Shown here piece by piece: positions 14,028 to 21,837 of a stretch of DNA of 21,843 bases. Within the stretch, counting starts at the first letter, position 1. Every line of letters begins with the position of its first letter. The position numbers and the translations under genes were made by a program. Below the pieces are notes generated by a model, which worked only from the letters and a program-made list of their open reading frames with translations, had not been told where the DNA came from and ran no database searches. Source of the stretch: a virus; IMG/VR virus record IMGVR_UViG_3300042868_004489, positions 1 to 21,843 of that record. One strand, given 5' to 3'.

Positions 14028-15654
14028 GATTTACTTAAAAGACAACTATATAGTCACTGAACTAGGTGGAATTATCGCCGTATTCCCAAAGAACTATTCA
14101 GGATATAGCGAAAATGTTTCAGGTTTTTATATCAATAGTACTTTACCCGTAAATAACCAACGTACAGTGTTCATTGATTTTGCGGATGTTGGTTCTATAT
14201 ATGATGAGGCTGGGGTAACTGCATATACAACAGATACGTTAAGAACTTTTTTACTTGGTAGCACGGGTTTTAAGTCACCCTCGGGAGGTAGCGGGGGCGT
14301 TTGGGGATCGATAACAGGAACGTTATCAACACAAACGGATTTACAAAGCGCGTTGGATGCCAAGCAAGACGATTTAATCAGCGGCACTAATATAAAAACC
14401 ATTAACTCAACGTCTTTGTTAGGAAGTGGTGATATTACTGTTCAGCCTACATTAGTTTCAGCTACAAATATCAAAACAGTTAACGGCAACTCTTTACTTG
14501 GTAGTGGTGATTTGGTTATTGGTGGAGGTGGTTTAACGGTAGGTACAACAGCTATTGCAAGTGGAACTATCGGAAGAATATTATTTCAAAATGGCGGCGA
14601 TGTTTTAGGTCAAGATTCTGCGTTATTTTGGGATAACACTAATAAGCGTTTAGGCATTGGTGCAACACCTTCAACAAGTGTGCGTTTAGACGTTCGCGCT
14701 CAAGGAGCGTTGAGTACTGACATAGCATTTAGAGTTAGAAATAGTGCTGATACATATAATATAATATCATCTTATGGAGATGAATTAACTATTATAGGTA
14801 GAAACGAATCAACGGAACCAAGGCTATTAATTAATAGAGCAGGAAGCACTAAAATGGTTCTAGGAGGCACGACTGATTTAAATATACAGTTTCCATCAAG
14901 TGGTTTTGGTCAATTAAACTCTGGCACTCAAGGATGGGATATAATATCATCTAGTGGAGATATTCGTACAAGAAACTCATCTACATTTACTCTATTGAAA
15001 GGTAATTTTTTCGGTATAGGTCAAACTACACCAGCTGCTAGACTAGACGTAAGAGCGCAAGGAGCGTTAAGTACGGATATAGCGTTTAGAGTTAGAAACA
15101 GTGCTGATACAAAAAATAGTTTTGAAATTAATGGTTTAGGACAAGGAACTATAAGAAGTACTGGTTTTGTACCAAGATTTAGTATAAGCTACGTATCTGA
15201 TACTGGTGTAGATAGAGACGCATTTATATTTACGCAAAATGTTCAAAATGCAATGGGACAGGCATGGACATTTGATGCTGGGTACAATGGCGTTCAAGAA
15301 AGATTAACTATATCTAATAATTTAACAGGAAATAATCAAGGTATTTTTTCTATTCATGCTTCAAATTTTTGTTTTGGTACAACTATATTAAATAGTGATA
15401 ATACAGCTGATAGGAGAGTTTTAAGGATAGCAACTGGTGTAGCCCCAACAACGTCATTTACAGATGGTTTTAAATTTTACTCAGCTGACATCGTAGCTGG
15501 TAATGCAGCACCACACTTCAGAACAGAAAACGGAAATATAATACGATTATTTCAAGGTGCTGCACTAACAGCATCTGATGGAACACTTGCTAATGCAGTT
15601 ACAAGAATTGCAGAAATTCAGGCAAGGTTACAAGCTCACGGATTAATTGCTTAA
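14020..15654 (+). CDS. Tail fibre protein with internal repeats
   Basis: A 544-residue fibre. The N-terminal ~95 residues (KIYLKDNYIVTELGG, VFIDFADVGSIYDEAG) look like the part that joins the fibre to the tail. Residues ~98-170 carry two copies of the common phage-fibre shaft motif: SGTNIKTINSTSLLGSGDI and SATNIKTVNGNSLLGSGDL, preceded by LDAKQDDL. Two further repeats follow: GIG-x-TP-x-x-RLDVRAQG at ~215 and ~335, of the type found in Bacteroidota and phage stalk proteins. The C-terminal ~30 residues (TLANAVTRIAEIQARLQAHGLIA) form a short coiled coil, likely a trimerisation end; no S74 chaperone peptidase is visible. From about 14,730 the DNA becomes more AT-rich and Arg codons switch to AGA/AGG, suggesting that the distal fibre came from another source. 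Confidence 0.8.
   Translation: MDKIYLKDNYIVTELGGIIAVFPKNYSGYSENVSGFYINSTLPVNNQRTVFIDFADVGSIYDEAGVTAYTTDTLRTFLLGSTGFKSPSGGSGGVWGSITGTLSTQTDLQSALDAKQDDLISGTNIKTINSTSLLGSGDITVQPTLVSATNIKTVNGNSLLGSGDLVIGGGGLTVGTTAIASGTIGRILFQNGGDVLGQDSALFWDNTNKRLGIGATPSTSVRLDVRAQGALSTDIAFRVRNSADTYNIISSYGDELTIIGRNESTEPRLLINRAGSTKMVLGGTTDLNIQFPSSGFGQLNSGTQGWDIISSSGDIRTRNSSTFTLLKGNFFGIGQTTPAARLDVRAQGALSTDIAFRVRNSADTKNSFEINGLGQGTIRSTGFVPRFSISYVSDTGVDRDAFIFTQNVQNAMGQAWTFDAGYNGVQERLTISNNLTGNNQGIFSIHASNFCFGTTILNSDNTADRRVLRIATGVAPTTSFTDGFKFYSADIVAGNAAPHFRTENGNIIRLFQGAALTASDGTLANAVTRIAEIQARLQAHGLIA
14683..14754 (+). repeat. Fibre repeat copy 1 (24 codons)
   Basis: Encodes RLDVRAQGALSTDIAFRVRN plus SADT. The encoded peptide is identical to that of the copy at 15040-15111, while the DNA differs at 12 of 72 positions, all synonymous. 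Confidence 0.9.
15040..15111 (+). repeat. Fibre repeat copy 2 (24 codons)
   Basis: Second copy of the 24-residue segment, 357 bases (119 codons) downstream of the first and in the same frame. Compared with copy 1 it uses AGA in place of CGT and CGC for two Arg codons and has eight further silent changes. Confidence 0.9.
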
Positions 15655-18708: not shown

Positions 18709-18932
18709 TGGAAAATCAAGAATTTATTAAAGATCTTTTATATATGACACCTGATGAAACCGTTAGAGGCGTTTTAAAGCGATTTAACGCACGATCTTTA
18801 GTTGGAATAGAGAAATACTCCACTACACTGGACAGAAACGATCTAACACGCTTAGAATGGCTTCAGCATTTACAGGATGAATTAATGGATGCGGTGCTTT
18901 ACATTGAGAAATTAAAACGTATAGGATTATGA
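18708..18932 (+). CDS. MazG-like small nucleotide pyrophosphohydrolase-type protein
   Basis: A 74-residue protein with RSLVGIEKYSTTLDRNDLTRLEWL followed by HLQDELMDAVLYIEKL. The E-x-x-D pattern in the last helix and the K-Y-x-T-T-L-x-R-x-D-L segment resemble small phage proteins of the MazG/all-alpha NTP pyrophosphatase type, which remove unusual or signalling nucleotides. The usual first ExxE metal site is not obvious and the protein is shorter than full MazG domains, so it may be a subunit-sized or inactive relative. Coupled to neighbours on both sides (TAATG, ATGA) within the replication operon, which fits a nucleotide-pool role. Confidence 0.65.
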   Translation: MENQEFIKDLLYMTPDETVRGVLKRFNARSLVGIEKYSTTLDRNDLTRLEWLQHLQDELMDAVLYIEKLKRIGL

Positions 18933-19027
18933 CAGCAGATTTTGCACTATTTACCGTATTATTTACATTAGGTGTTCTGGTAGGGTTTTATTTAGGCATG
19001 AAATTTTGGGATCAATTTAACAAGTGA
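18929..19027 (+). CDS. 32-residue single-span membrane peptide
   Basis: Starts at the ATG that overlaps the previous stop (ATGA). The peptide MTADFALFTVLFTLGVLVGF continues to YLGMKFWDQFNK: one transmembrane helix of about 22 residues with G-x-x-x-G spacing (GVLVG) and a short polar end. Its length, hydrophobicity and coupling support real translation. Function unknown. Confidence 0.55.
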   Translation: MTADFALFTVLFTLGVLVGFYLGMKFWDQFNK

Positions 19028-19032
19028 ATCAG

Positions 19033-19203
19033 ATGAAAACAAGAAAACATAAACACATCACATTACCAATTACTAAGGTCATGGAATGGTGGAGAAAAGG
19101 GCATACTTCAGAGGGTGCAAAGGGTGGATCATTTAACTTAGATCTGTATTTAAATTATTGTGTAGCAAGGGAGAATTATGAAGATAGGAAAAAAGTACAA
19201 TAG
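19033..19203 (+). CDS. 56-residue basic protein, unknown function
   Basis: A small basic protein beginning MKTRKHKHITLPITKVMEWW, with RKGHTSEGAKGGSFNLDLYL in the middle and a charged end. It starts five bases after the previous stop and overlaps the DnaA-like gene by 26 bases. The Lys/His-rich head and paired Trp could bind nucleic acid, but I do not recognise the family. Confidence 0.58.
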   Translation: MKTRKHKHITLPITKVMEWWRKGHTSEGAKGGSFNLDLYLNYCVARENYEDRKKVQ

Positions 19204-19597
19204 ACCAAAGCTAATGGACAGCAACGTCAGAAAAGTAAGGAATGCAACACGCGTAATCGAAATGTACGGTTTAGCCGGTAAAAGTAGACTTAGAACGACT
19301 GTATATAGACGAGCCTACATGATGGCTAAACTTCGGCAAATAGGATGCACGTTTGAAATGATCGGTGAACTATTTAATAAAGATCATTCAACGGTTGTAT
19401 ATTCGGTCAAGAATCACGATTACTTTGTCAAGATGAACGACCTGACATATAAGTTAGCGGTTGAGCCAGTAAAGACTACGTTTAAGATCATGAATCAGGA
19501 GGTACAGTTAAATATATACAGCGATGTGTTAAGTTGCTTAGACTTTAACGATTTGCTTTTGATCAAAGAAAAAATACATAACGGGATGTACAATTAA
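19178..19597 (+). CDS. DnaA domain IV-like DNA-binding protein
   Basis: A 139-residue protein. Residues ~43-80 match the C-terminal DNA-binding domain of DnaA: an arginine/alanine-rich helix (RRAYMMAKLRQIG), a second helix (TFEMIGELFNK) and the signature D69-H-S-T-V73 followed by VYSVKNH. In DnaA the DHxTV stretch contacts the DnaA box. There is no AAA+ domain, so this is a stand-alone DNA binder and not an initiator ATPase. The basic N-terminus (NRPKLMDSNVRKVRNATRV) may add DNA contacts; the C-terminal ~45 residues are not recognised. Unusually for this window, AAGGGAG (19167-19173) stands four bases before the ATG, a proper Shine-Dalgarno distance. It lies just before the replication initiator, so an origin-binding or transcription-control role is plausible. 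Confidence 0.72.
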   Translation: MKIGKKYNRPKLMDSNVRKVRNATRVIEMYGLAGKSRLRTTVYRRAYMMAKLRQIGCTFEMIGELFNKDHSTVVYSVKNHDYFVKMNDLTYKLAVEPVKTTFKIMNQEVQLNIYSDVLSCLDFNDLLLIKEKIHNGMYN

Positions 19598-19610
19598 ATT
19601 TGTATATTTG
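19595..19610 (+). promoter_or_regulatory. Two adjacent TAnnTTTG boxes
   Basis: TAAATTTG (19595-19602) and TATATTTG (19603-19610) lie back to back at the stop of the DnaA-like gene and directly before the stem structure at 19611. Each fits the Bacteroidota -7 consensus, but no TTG is seen at the proper distance upstream, so transcription from here would need an activator or would be weak. Confidence 0.45.
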
Positions 19611-19677
19611 TAGAGAGGGTTTGCGGAGGCATCCCAGTAAAAAGTTTCACACACTTCTTTTCCCTCTCTATTTTTTT
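19611..19677 (+). terminator. Terminator-like stem with 42-base loop (leader RNA or attenuator)
   Basis: TAGAGAGGG (19611-19619) is the exact complement of CCCTCTCTA (19662-19670), followed by seven T. The arms are 42 bases apart, far more than in an ordinary terminator, so the element could be a short non-coding RNA, an attenuator, or a leader whose folding is controlled. It fills the gap between the DnaA-like gene and the replication initiator gene. Confidence 0.6.
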
Positions 19678-19701
19678 AAGTGTGTGGTTTAAATAAGTGT
19701 G
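19648..19701 (+). promoter_or_regulatory. Alternative RNA pairing upstream of the initiator gene
   Basis: CACACACTT (19648-19656) is the exact complement of AAGTGTGTG (19678-19686). A second copy of AAGTGTG at 19695-19701 can pair with CACACTT (19650-19656) and ends four bases before the ATG at 19706. Either pairing places CCCTCTCTA in its loop and so competes with the stem at 19611-19670. Confidence 0.5.
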
Positions 19702-19705
19702 ATAA

Positions 19706-20365
19706 ATGAACGGATACAATCTTCTAAGGGATTGGTTTAATTTTAAATTTGCCAACCCATCAAAAACAAAAGCAAGTCATTCTGATTTTTATTGTTATTT
19801 AATTGATCGTTGGAATCGGTTAGGTCAAAAACAAGAATTTGGTTTACCTACTTCCGTAACTATGGAGGCACTTGGTATAGGATCATACAATACGTATAAA
19901 AAAACATTGAATGATTTGATCGAATTTGGTTTTGTTACAATCGTATCTGAAAGCAAAAATCAACACCAAAGTAAGATTATTGCTATATCAAAAAATGACA
20001 AAGCAATTGACAAAGCACTTGACGAAGCAAATAACAAAGCAACTGACAAAGCAACTGACACCATAATAAAACAAAAGAATAATAGAACAAAAGAAAGGAA
20101 TTTGTTATTCGATAAGTTTTGGGTTATGTACGGAAAATCGGCTGATAAAAAAAAGTGCATGGATAAGTTTATCCTATTATCAGATAGTGAAATTGATTTG
20201 ATCTTTGAAACGTTGCCAATCTATTTGCTTAAAACACCTGATGTTCAGTATAGGAAAAATCCTTTGACTTACATAAACGGCAAATGCTGGAATGATATTG
20301 ATCTAAACAACCCGCAGATACCAAGCAATCCGTATAACTTACCTCCCGTTGTTTGGGAAGGTTGA
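19706..20365 (+). CDS. Replication initiator / helicase-loader-type protein
   Basis: A 219-residue protein. Residues ~1-90 form a winged-helix-like DNA-binding region (SVTMEALGIGSYNTYKKTL, then LIEFGFVTIVSES). Residues ~97-120 are a low-complexity linker of repeated KA-x-D/N units (AIDKALDEANNKATDKATD). Residues ~130-205 match the C-terminal part of phage replication proteins that I recall from Bacteroidota (FDKFWVMYGK, IYLLKTPDVQYRKNPLTYINGKCW), a DnaD-like or helicase-recruiting module. It is followed by the helicase gene, as lambda O is followed by P. Its likely role is to bind the origin and bring in the helicase. The linker DNA is itself a repeat array (see 19996). No Shine-Dalgarno; the ATG has an A-rich leader. 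Confidence 0.72.
   Translation: MNGYNLLRDWFNFKFANPSKTKASHSDFYCYLIDRWNRLGQKQEFGLPTSVTMEALGIGSYNTYKKTLNDLIEFGFVTIVSESKNQHQSKIIAISKNDKAIDKALDEANNKATDKATDTIIKQKNNRTKERNLLFDKFWVMYGKSADKKKCMDKFILLSDSEIDLIFETLPIYLLKTPDVQYRKNPLTYINGKCWNDIDLNNPQIPSNPYNLPPVVWEG
19996..20055 (+). repeat. Five tandem 12-bp repeats, origin candidate
   Basis: Units at 19996, 20008, 20020, 20032 and 20044 follow TGACAAAGCAAY with few changes: TGACAAAGCAAT, TGACAAAGCACT, TGACGAAGCAAA, TAACAAAGCAAC, TGACAAAGCAAC. A sixth unit begins as TGACA at 20056 and then decays into an A-rich stretch (to about 20100). The array lies inside the initiator gene in the linker between its two domains, as iterons do in the lambda O gene. Confidence 0.7.
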
Positions 20366-20378
20366 TAAATTAACAGAT

Positions 20379-21362
20379 ATGTACAAAAGATTATCAGACG
20401 TAAACAGTCAAATGAACGAAATACGTCAAGTAAAAAATGTTCGGGGCAAATCTATTGGATGGGATTGGGATATGTTACCCTTTACAATTAAGGAGGGTTG
20501 TACAACTTACATAGGTGCTGCCCCAGCATCCGGTAAAACGGAACTTTGGTTTGAGTTTTTAATCAACCTTTCATGCATACACGGTTGGAATCATGTTGTG
20601 TTTTCACCTGAAACTGGTAGTGCTGCCGAAATATACGCTGAACTATGTTATAAGTACATTGGTAAACCTTATTCGATTGGTCACAATTCCATGACACAAT
20701 CTGAACAAATACGCGCTGAACATTTCATAAATGAACATTTCATTGTGATTGATCCAATTGATGAGGATTTAACATTGCAAGGGTTTTATAAATTGGTTGA
20801 TGAGATCGAACGAACGCATAATATAAACATCCATACAACCACAATTGATCCTTGGAATGAATTAACCGAGGAATATATCCAAAGTGATTTAGGCCGCGAA
20901 GACAAATATCTTAGTCGTATTTTAGGAATTGCAAGAAAGAACGCGCGTAAAACAAATAGGCACAATTGCATAATAAATCACGTTCGCGATCAACCAATGG
21001 TACATGGTAAAACAGTTGTAGGTACTGAGATCAGTTATTTTCCAATACCAACGGCGCGTGATTTTGCCGGTGGGCAAGTATGGTTTAGAAAAGGACTATC
21101 TGTATTGATCCCTTGGCGACCTCCTTACGGATTGCCAAATGAGGATGGAAGTTGTGCAGAAAAAAATGAAGTACATTTGAAAGTTGCAAAGAGTAAACCA
21201 AAAGGCGTATCAAAAAACGGAACATATCGCTTATTTTTGGATGTTGAACGGTATCAATATTATATGATCGATTGGAAGGGTAATAGAATTTATGCGAATA
21301 GATCACATATACAACCAACTCAAACAACACTAAACCACATAGTCAAAGATTGCCCATTTTAG
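20379..21362 (+). CDS. DnaB-type replicative helicase, RecA-fold domain only
   Basis: With the ATG at 20379 the protein has 327 residues; a TTG at 20349 would add ten but overlaps the previous gene. Walker A is G46-AAPASG-K53-T54, and the Walker B strand is IHTTTIDPWNE with Asp157. A later NHVRDQP segment is in the place of the DnaB-family motif that senses nucleotide or carries the basic finger. The usual DnaB N-terminal primase-binding domain is absent; the chain begins with only ~30 helical residues before WDWDMLPFTIKEG, which matches the start of the RecA-like domain. It probably forms a ring that unwinds phage DNA after loading by the initiator encoded just upstream. An RecA/RadA-like recombinase is the main alternative. 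Confidence 0.78.
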   Translation: MYKRLSDVNSQMNEIRQVKNVRGKSIGWDWDMLPFTIKEGCTTYIGAAPASGKTELWFEFLINLSCIHGWNHVVFSPETGSAAEIYAELCYKYIGKPYSIGHNSMTQSEQIRAEHFINEHFIVIDPIDEDLTLQGFYKLVDEIERTHNINIHTTTIDPWNELTEEYIQSDLGREDKYLSRILGIARKNARKTNRHNCIINHVRDQPMVHGKTVVGTEISYFPIPTARDFAGGQVWFRKGLSVLIPWRPPYGLPNEDGSCAEKNEVHLKVAKSKPKGVSKNGTYRLFLDVERYQYYMIDWKGNRIYANRSHIQPTQTTLNHIVKDCPF

Positions 21363-21421
21363 TACTAAATTAGACCTAAAAAAATCAAGTAAATAAAAAC
21401 ACGAATTATATACATGAAATT

Positions 21422-21721
21422 ATGATTGAAGAACTAGAACACTTACTCGCGCAGACATCAACAAGCGCAATTATCGGTAGCATTAAACACGAATTAGATA
21501 GGCTAAAAACAGTTGATGAGGACAAGGCAAAGCCATTCATTGATGGAAGTAGTAAACACTTGGAAAGCATGAAGCACGTATTATTACATTTGATGATATG
21601 CGAGAAAGAAATACGCAACCTTATAAGCCAAAACTACAACTTACATAGGGAAAATATGGAACTGTCAAGAAAAGTAGAACAGTTGGAAATAATGAATAAT
21701 AATCTAATGAATGGCATATAA
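21422..21721 (+). CDS. Coiled-coil protein, unknown function
   Basis: A 99-residue helical protein (HELDRLKTVDEDKAK; then EKEIRNLISQNYNLHREN and KVEQLEIMNNNL). The C-terminal ~40 residues are a regular coiled coil. It starts 59 bases after the helicase gene; that gap is AT-rich and holds no structure I can see. Not recognised. Confidence 0.72.
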   Translation: MIEELEHLLAQTSTSAIIGSIKHELDRLKTVDEDKAKPFIDGSSKHLESMKHVLLHLMICEKEIRNLISQNYNLHRENMELSRKVEQLEIMNNNLMNGI

Positions 21722-21727
21722 CGTATG

Positions 21728-21837
21728 GTGCTTTGCGAAGGCGGGGCTTTTAACCACTAAATTTAATTAAAAAGATGAATGATATATTTAACGAAAATGT
21801 TCCTTTGAAAACGGAAACGCCCGCTTTTGCAAAGCAC
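21728..21837 (+). promoter_or_regulatory. 18-bp RNA stem bracketing a start codon
   Basis: GTGCTTTGCGAAGGCGGG (21728-21745) pairs with CCCGCTTTTGCAAAGCAC (21820-21837). As RNA all 18 positions pair, two of them as G-U. The 74-base loop contains the ATG at 21775. The right arm is codons 16-21 of the new gene. Confidence 0.6.

Follow-up and report, generated by a model that had tools for sequence, protein, structure and literature searches.

A structured RNA with a variable guide loop recurs in the leaders of replication initiator genes of Bacteroidota-type phages

The antisense RNAs that control plasmid copy number, such as ColE1 RNA I and R1 CopA, lie on the other strand from their target. 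Several phage RNAs are organized differently. In the c4 antisense RNA of phages P1 and P7 the loops pair with the leader of the target and partly cover its ribosome binding site, the specificity being carried by these loops (PMC5320573). The CI RNA of the satellite phage P4 is a same-strand leader RNA described as complementary to two sites of the untranslated leader (seqA and seqC) of the replication operon (PMC4825925). For IsrK of the prophage Gifsy-1, one promoter gives rise to a terminated small RNA and to a readthrough mRNA, and the small RNA acts on the mRNA in trans (PMC4825925). Replication control in phages of Bacteroidota is little known.

Analysis of a viral DNA stretch of 21,843 nt, hereafter the window, reveals in front of its replication initiator gene a structured RNA whose guide loop is complementary to two downstream sites (Table 1), and which recurs on other phage contigs. 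Like c4 (RF01695), it is a small same-strand RNA located upstream of its presumed target and, as an analogy only, its loop complements the region in which translation of the downstream gene begins (site 2 here). On the other hand, c4 precedes and represses the icd/ant antirepressor operon and has two loops, whereas the present RNA precedes replication initiators and has one guide loop and two sites; c4 is processed by RNase P, whereas the window RNA probably has its own promoter and terminator; and the carrier records, often mere fragments, showed no tyrosine integrase. The likeness to P4 CI RNA, drawn as an analogy and without a P4 CI model, consists of two complementary sites in the same leader. 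CI RNA is processed, causes premature transcription termination and has one site upstream and one downstream, whereas both sites of the window RNA are downstream, one of them overlying the translation start, with a terminator-like stem between the RNA and the gene. IsrK (RF01394) shares the one-promoter layout with short and readthrough products proposed for the window RNA but activates translation of an antirepressor-type operon. The RNA is not filed under c4 or IsrK because the covariance models of both fail to match: a search of the window record and of 12 carrier records with RF01695 gave no match at E ≤ 1, and none at the gathering score, and RF01394 gave none above cut-off, with only a sub-threshold match of 15.6 bits elsewhere in G011. 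Finally, the proposed logic, in which an RNA proportional to copy number limits initiation, is that of ColE1 RNA I and R1 CopA; these are opposite-strand RNAs, whereas the window RNA lies on the same strand, upstream of its target.

Table 1. Features of the leader and its flanking genes in the window
Feature	Position	Strand	Evidence or remark
DnaA-like gene (Bac_DnaA_C)	19178–19597	+	Pfam E 6.9e-9; upstream neighbour, outside the RNA module
Two abutting Bacteroidota-type -7 boxes	19595–19610	+	Read from sequence
Box TAAATTTG	19595–19602	+	Overlaps stop codon of DnaA-like gene
Box TATATTTG	19603–19610	+	Placed as the box in other members
Structured RNA: three-way junction P1/P2/P3 and U-tract	19611–19677	+	Covariance model R1, 84 bits; covariation
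P1 left arm (stem 1) TAGAGAGGG	19611–19619	+	Pairs with 19662–19670
P2 hairpin UUUGC GGA [GGCA] UCC CA GUAAA	19620–19641	+	Tip-stem covariation
P3 hairpin (AAG/CUU)	19642–19659	+	Guide loop UUUCACACACUU at 19645–19656
P1 right arm CCCTCTCTA and T7 tract, terminator-like	19662–19677	+	Sequence
Site 1 AAGTGTGTGG	19678–19687	+	Guide complement, 10 pairs including one G-U
Site 2 AAGTGTG	19695–19701	+	Second guide complement; within translation initiation region
Replication initiator gene (phrog_270), presumed target	19706–20365	+	PHROGs E 2e-11
Helicase-like gene, downstream	20379–21362	+	PHROGs phrog_5482; weaker match to primase/helicase phrog_239

The promoter boxes, the two 9-bp perfect stems, the T7 tract and the second AAGTGTG copy described in a first-pass annotation of this leader were all found again by direct reading of the sequence. 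Stem 1 (P1, right arm at 19662–19670) encloses a loop of 42 nt and is followed by the T7 tract at 19671–19677; stem 2, formed by CACACACTT (19648–19656) and AAGTGTGTG (19678–19686), contains the right arm of stem 1 within its loop. They are the only pair of interleaved 9-bp perfect stems in the window, and such a pair arose in 8 of 200 Markov simulations of the whole window; when the 111-base leader was simulated 5000 times, none appeared, so that chance would not be expected to produce the pair in such a stretch. On the + strand of the window AAGTGTG occurs only in sites 1 and 2 and at 14676; the copy of site 2 ends four bases 5' of the ATG at 19706. The folding check proposed with the annotation separates two pieces of the leader: a 131-nt piece with the leader does not stand out on its own (z −0.31), and the terminated 67-nt piece does better than shuffles (z −2.4), 5 of 200 shuffles being equally good. 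The comparative evidence is far stronger than the folding of the window leader.

The relatives of the DnaA-like gene form several groups. Those numbered L008–L010 keep the window leader; in most others the gene and promoter are kept and the leader carries a different structured RNA. Further leaders of the same layout were sought with the 16-mer GGTTTGCGGAGGCATC, many of whose 30 matches are unrelated DNA, then with looser patterns, and a covariance model (R1) was built from seven member leaders. The IMG/VR scans yielded 14 members (13 distinct sequences), all from uncultured viral contigs of Bacteroidota-type phages, with one copy of the RNA per carrier contig; from promoters and homologues, the hosts would belong to the phylum Bacteroidota. 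The members score 61–88 bits with R1, and the best non-member among everything searched scores 18.7. At the gathering score, no family of Rfam 15 matches the window, ten relatives or twelve members, the below-threshold matches being to eukaryotic or unrelated families, and named phages and plasmids gave matches at chance level only. Searches of bacterial genomes, partial in coverage, gave no match to the exact core and at least 118 stretches with a looser pattern; among the matches listed, none combined a passed structural filter with a plausible leader. R1 gave no match in 395 genomes of the class of a Flavobacterium, a weak negative obtained with strict filters and no positive control. The literature search found no description of the motif either; the RNA family is previously uncatalogued. 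A GC-rich recurring sequence around ACGGAGGTTTGCGGAGGCATCC, present in L036, L043, L044, L047 and L050, contains the 16-mer without the RNA structure and is apparently an unrelated repeated motif.

All members share one architecture: a variable P1, a near-invariant P2 with the consensus UUUGC-NNN-GGCA-NNN-C(A/U)-GUAAA, a short P3 with a loop of 10–13 nt, the return to P1 and then, in most of them, a U-tract. Most search patterns allowed no variation in the TTTGC, GGCA and GTAAAA columns, so that the apparent invariance of the core may be partly imposed by the search; a search with five core columns freed (G13, C14, C25, N26 and G27) brought no new member or variant. Among the 13 distinct sequences, 95% of pair cells hold standard pairs and 10 of the 20 pairs show changes on both sides, including 7 of the 9 pairs of P1. 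In the tip of P2, GGA/UCC is replaced by GAU/GUC, GGU/ACC and GCA/UGC in L083, L178 and L179 while the GGCA loop is kept; P3 pairs in 97% of cells, and compensatory changes are found in P1, P2 and P3 alike. In total, 32 double-change cells were counted versus 8.7 expected in shuffles (reached in 0 of 500), and at most 8 when the alignment was slid. The covariation of the member RNA is strong, and the paired substitutions in related phages support the earlier suggestion of a structured regulatory RNA in the initiator leader. By plain folding the terminated RNA adopts the P1-closed form in most members.

In Flavobacterium the promoter consensus is TAHHTTTG, with transcription starting 4 or 5 nt downstream (PMC6847099), and the members have a box of the TAnnTTTG type or a near match 8–10 nt 5' of the core. 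The start site is uncertain because the complementarity of P1 reaches 2–4 nt 5' of the start predicted from this spacing. A U-rich tract lies 3' of P1 in most members, being weak in L034 and L040, and gives P1 a terminator-like look; the window RNA probably ends at the U-tract. Counted from P1 through the ATG, the leader measures 94–104 nt in all members. The two stems had been proposed to exclude each other, following the logic of a terminator and antiterminator. Although P1 and its U-tract do resemble an intrinsic terminator, an attenuator in which stem 2 prevents stem 1 is scarcely credible: in the window, as in all members, the T-tract precedes the right arm of stem 2, which the polymerase therefore transcribes once it is already beyond the U-tract, too late to bear on termination. 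This reading was rejected. The supposed incompatibility does not hold either, since the spacings (28 nt 5' of stem 2's left arm, then 5 nt and 7 nt) suit an H-type pseudoknot and all members keep the complementarity between guide loop and site 1 together with P1.

The loop of P3 varies in sequence among members and nevertheless matches the downstream sites of its own leader. Site 1, directly 3' of the U-tract, forms 7–11 pairs with the guide. Guides form 8.5 pairs with cognate sites versus 4.7–5.2 with non-cognate ones, a difference reached in 0 of 100,000 permutations, counts that concern 13 distinct sequences, some related, and are thus strong without being independent draws. Site 2 is shorter, lies just 5' of the start codon in 11 of the 13 members and has its end anywhere from 11 nt 5' of the ATG to 2 nt within it; L032 (3 pairs) and L042 have a poor site 2 or none. 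After removal of site 1 the cognate value is still 6.65 pairs versus 4.67, which none of 100,000 permutations and none of 2000 shuffles equalled. The second AAGTGTG copy had been put forward as a partner near the start codon, and this cognate matching argues for a translational target there: site 2 falls within the −20 to +20 region around the start codon, in which pairing lowers translation in Flavobacterium (PMC6847099).

Guide/site matching would also be preserved by a purely cis mechanism. The leader could be a translational switch whose guide pairs with site 1 (open) or site 2 (closed), a metabolite or protein bound to the near-invariant junction and P2 biasing the choice. A single loop with two mutually exclusive partners, the second at the start codon, a conserved core among variable helices that resembles an aptamer or protein site, and the mixed ensembles obtained by plain nested folding of the long leaders are all consistent with such a switch. 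We nevertheless regard it as unlikely, since a terminator-like U-tract between core and gene, present in most members, is unexpected for a purely translational device, and the strong diversification of the guide fits target specificity and is not needed for sensing.

We lean, with some reservation, towards a same-strand antisense RNA that controls translation of the initiator in trans, in the manner of c4, P4 CI or IsrK, as a brake on copy number or timing. The leader would give a small structured RNA from its own promoter, probably ended by P1 and the U-tract, in which the three-way junction displays the guide loop. Readthrough of the terminator would produce the initiator mRNA bearing sites 1 and 2; within this long transcript site 1 can hold the guide in the pseudoknot, so that the start codon stays open. 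With its guide free, the short RNA would pair in trans with site 2 (and site 1) and block initiation; as phage genomes multiply, the short RNA would accumulate and each genome would yield less initiator. Judging from the sequences, the RNA probably sets the amount of replication protein made per phage. The three-way match of guide, site 1 and site 2 speaks for the trans model, and the possibility raised in the first-pass annotation, that of a distinct trans-acting RNA of about 60 bases, gains ground; the weak U-tracts of L034 and L040, the poor site 2 of L032 and L042 and the uncertain 5' end speak against it. Trans action could also have the opposite sign, the short RNA opening a closed readthrough mRNA as an activator. 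Gifsy-1 IsrK has the same one-promoter short/readthrough layout (PMC4825925), but pairing of the initiation region in the nested ensemble is, on average, only partial, and site 2 is placed where pairing should close the start codon rather than open it, which makes activation improbable.

The gene 3' of the RNA is of the replication initiator or helicase loader type and belongs to several families. Close homologues of the phrog_270 gene of the window follow the RNA in L009, L023 and L034, a DUF6291/phrog_19415 gene in L022, L024, L028 and L042 (and in L178 with a GIY-YIG fusion), the C-terminal part of phrog_19415 in L032, a DnaD-like phrog_2514 gene in L033 and L179, an O-like phrog_678 gene in L083 and, assigned by position only and without a PHROGs match, a DUF7833 gene in L040. 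A RecA-like helicase or primase/helicase gene usually comes next, these assignments outside the window being made by reading the sequences and not by family search, so that the order RNA, initiator or loader, helicase or primase recurs; the genes upstream of the RNA differ between members. The adjoining replication genes could also suit a DNA-level element, such as an origin structure or a primer RNA beside the initiator gene. We consider this very improbable, as the near-fixed spacing of the promoter-like box, the U-tract, the G-U pairs and the match at the start codon speak for RNA and for translation.

More tentatively, and with less confidence than in the antisense brake itself, the RNA may constitute an incompatibility system: an exchangeable cassette before unrelated initiators, whose guide would repress initiator synthesis from genomes with matching sites and thus limit the phage itself and co-infecting phages with the same guide, without a protein repressor. 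From the guide classes one can predict directly between which phages interference should occur. Placed before initiators of several unrelated families, a recurrent RNA that combines a variable guide with two matching sites would act as a general switch for the replication of phage DNA and could be recognized from the sequence by itself; same-strand antisense control of the c4/CI/IsrK type would thereby reach another phylum and replication initiators.

Several other observations concern this locus and its relatives. In L178 (9907–10398), directly 3' of the RNA, the first ~62 residues of DUF6291 are fused to a GIY-YIG domain (T5orf172) and followed by a DnaD-like gene, an arrangement suggestive of a homing endonuclease inserted into the initiator slot. 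In sister phages a second structured RNA occupies the same slot behind the same promoter (L001, 3434–3515; L004, 653–740; L005, 3434–3520; L011, 3402–3490). The loop of its 5' hairpin is complementary to the loop of the following terminator hairpin (GGCTTCAC/GTGAAGCC, CATCTCAC/GTGAGATG and CCTTCGAC/GTCGAAGG), a possible kissing RNA with covariation; the copies that were scanned have no Rfam match. Since the sister phages share the promoter and carry another terminator-ended RNA, an RNA-gene slot is suggested. The leader at 2025–2110 of Polaribacter phage Danklef_1 (L302) resembles this second RNA but aligns poorly. Finally, 82 bp of the window (21719–21800) are 95% identical to a DNA methyltransferase gene of the Flavobacterium phages hemulen and stinky, the sole nucleotide-level similarity to named phages within window positions 18900–21800.
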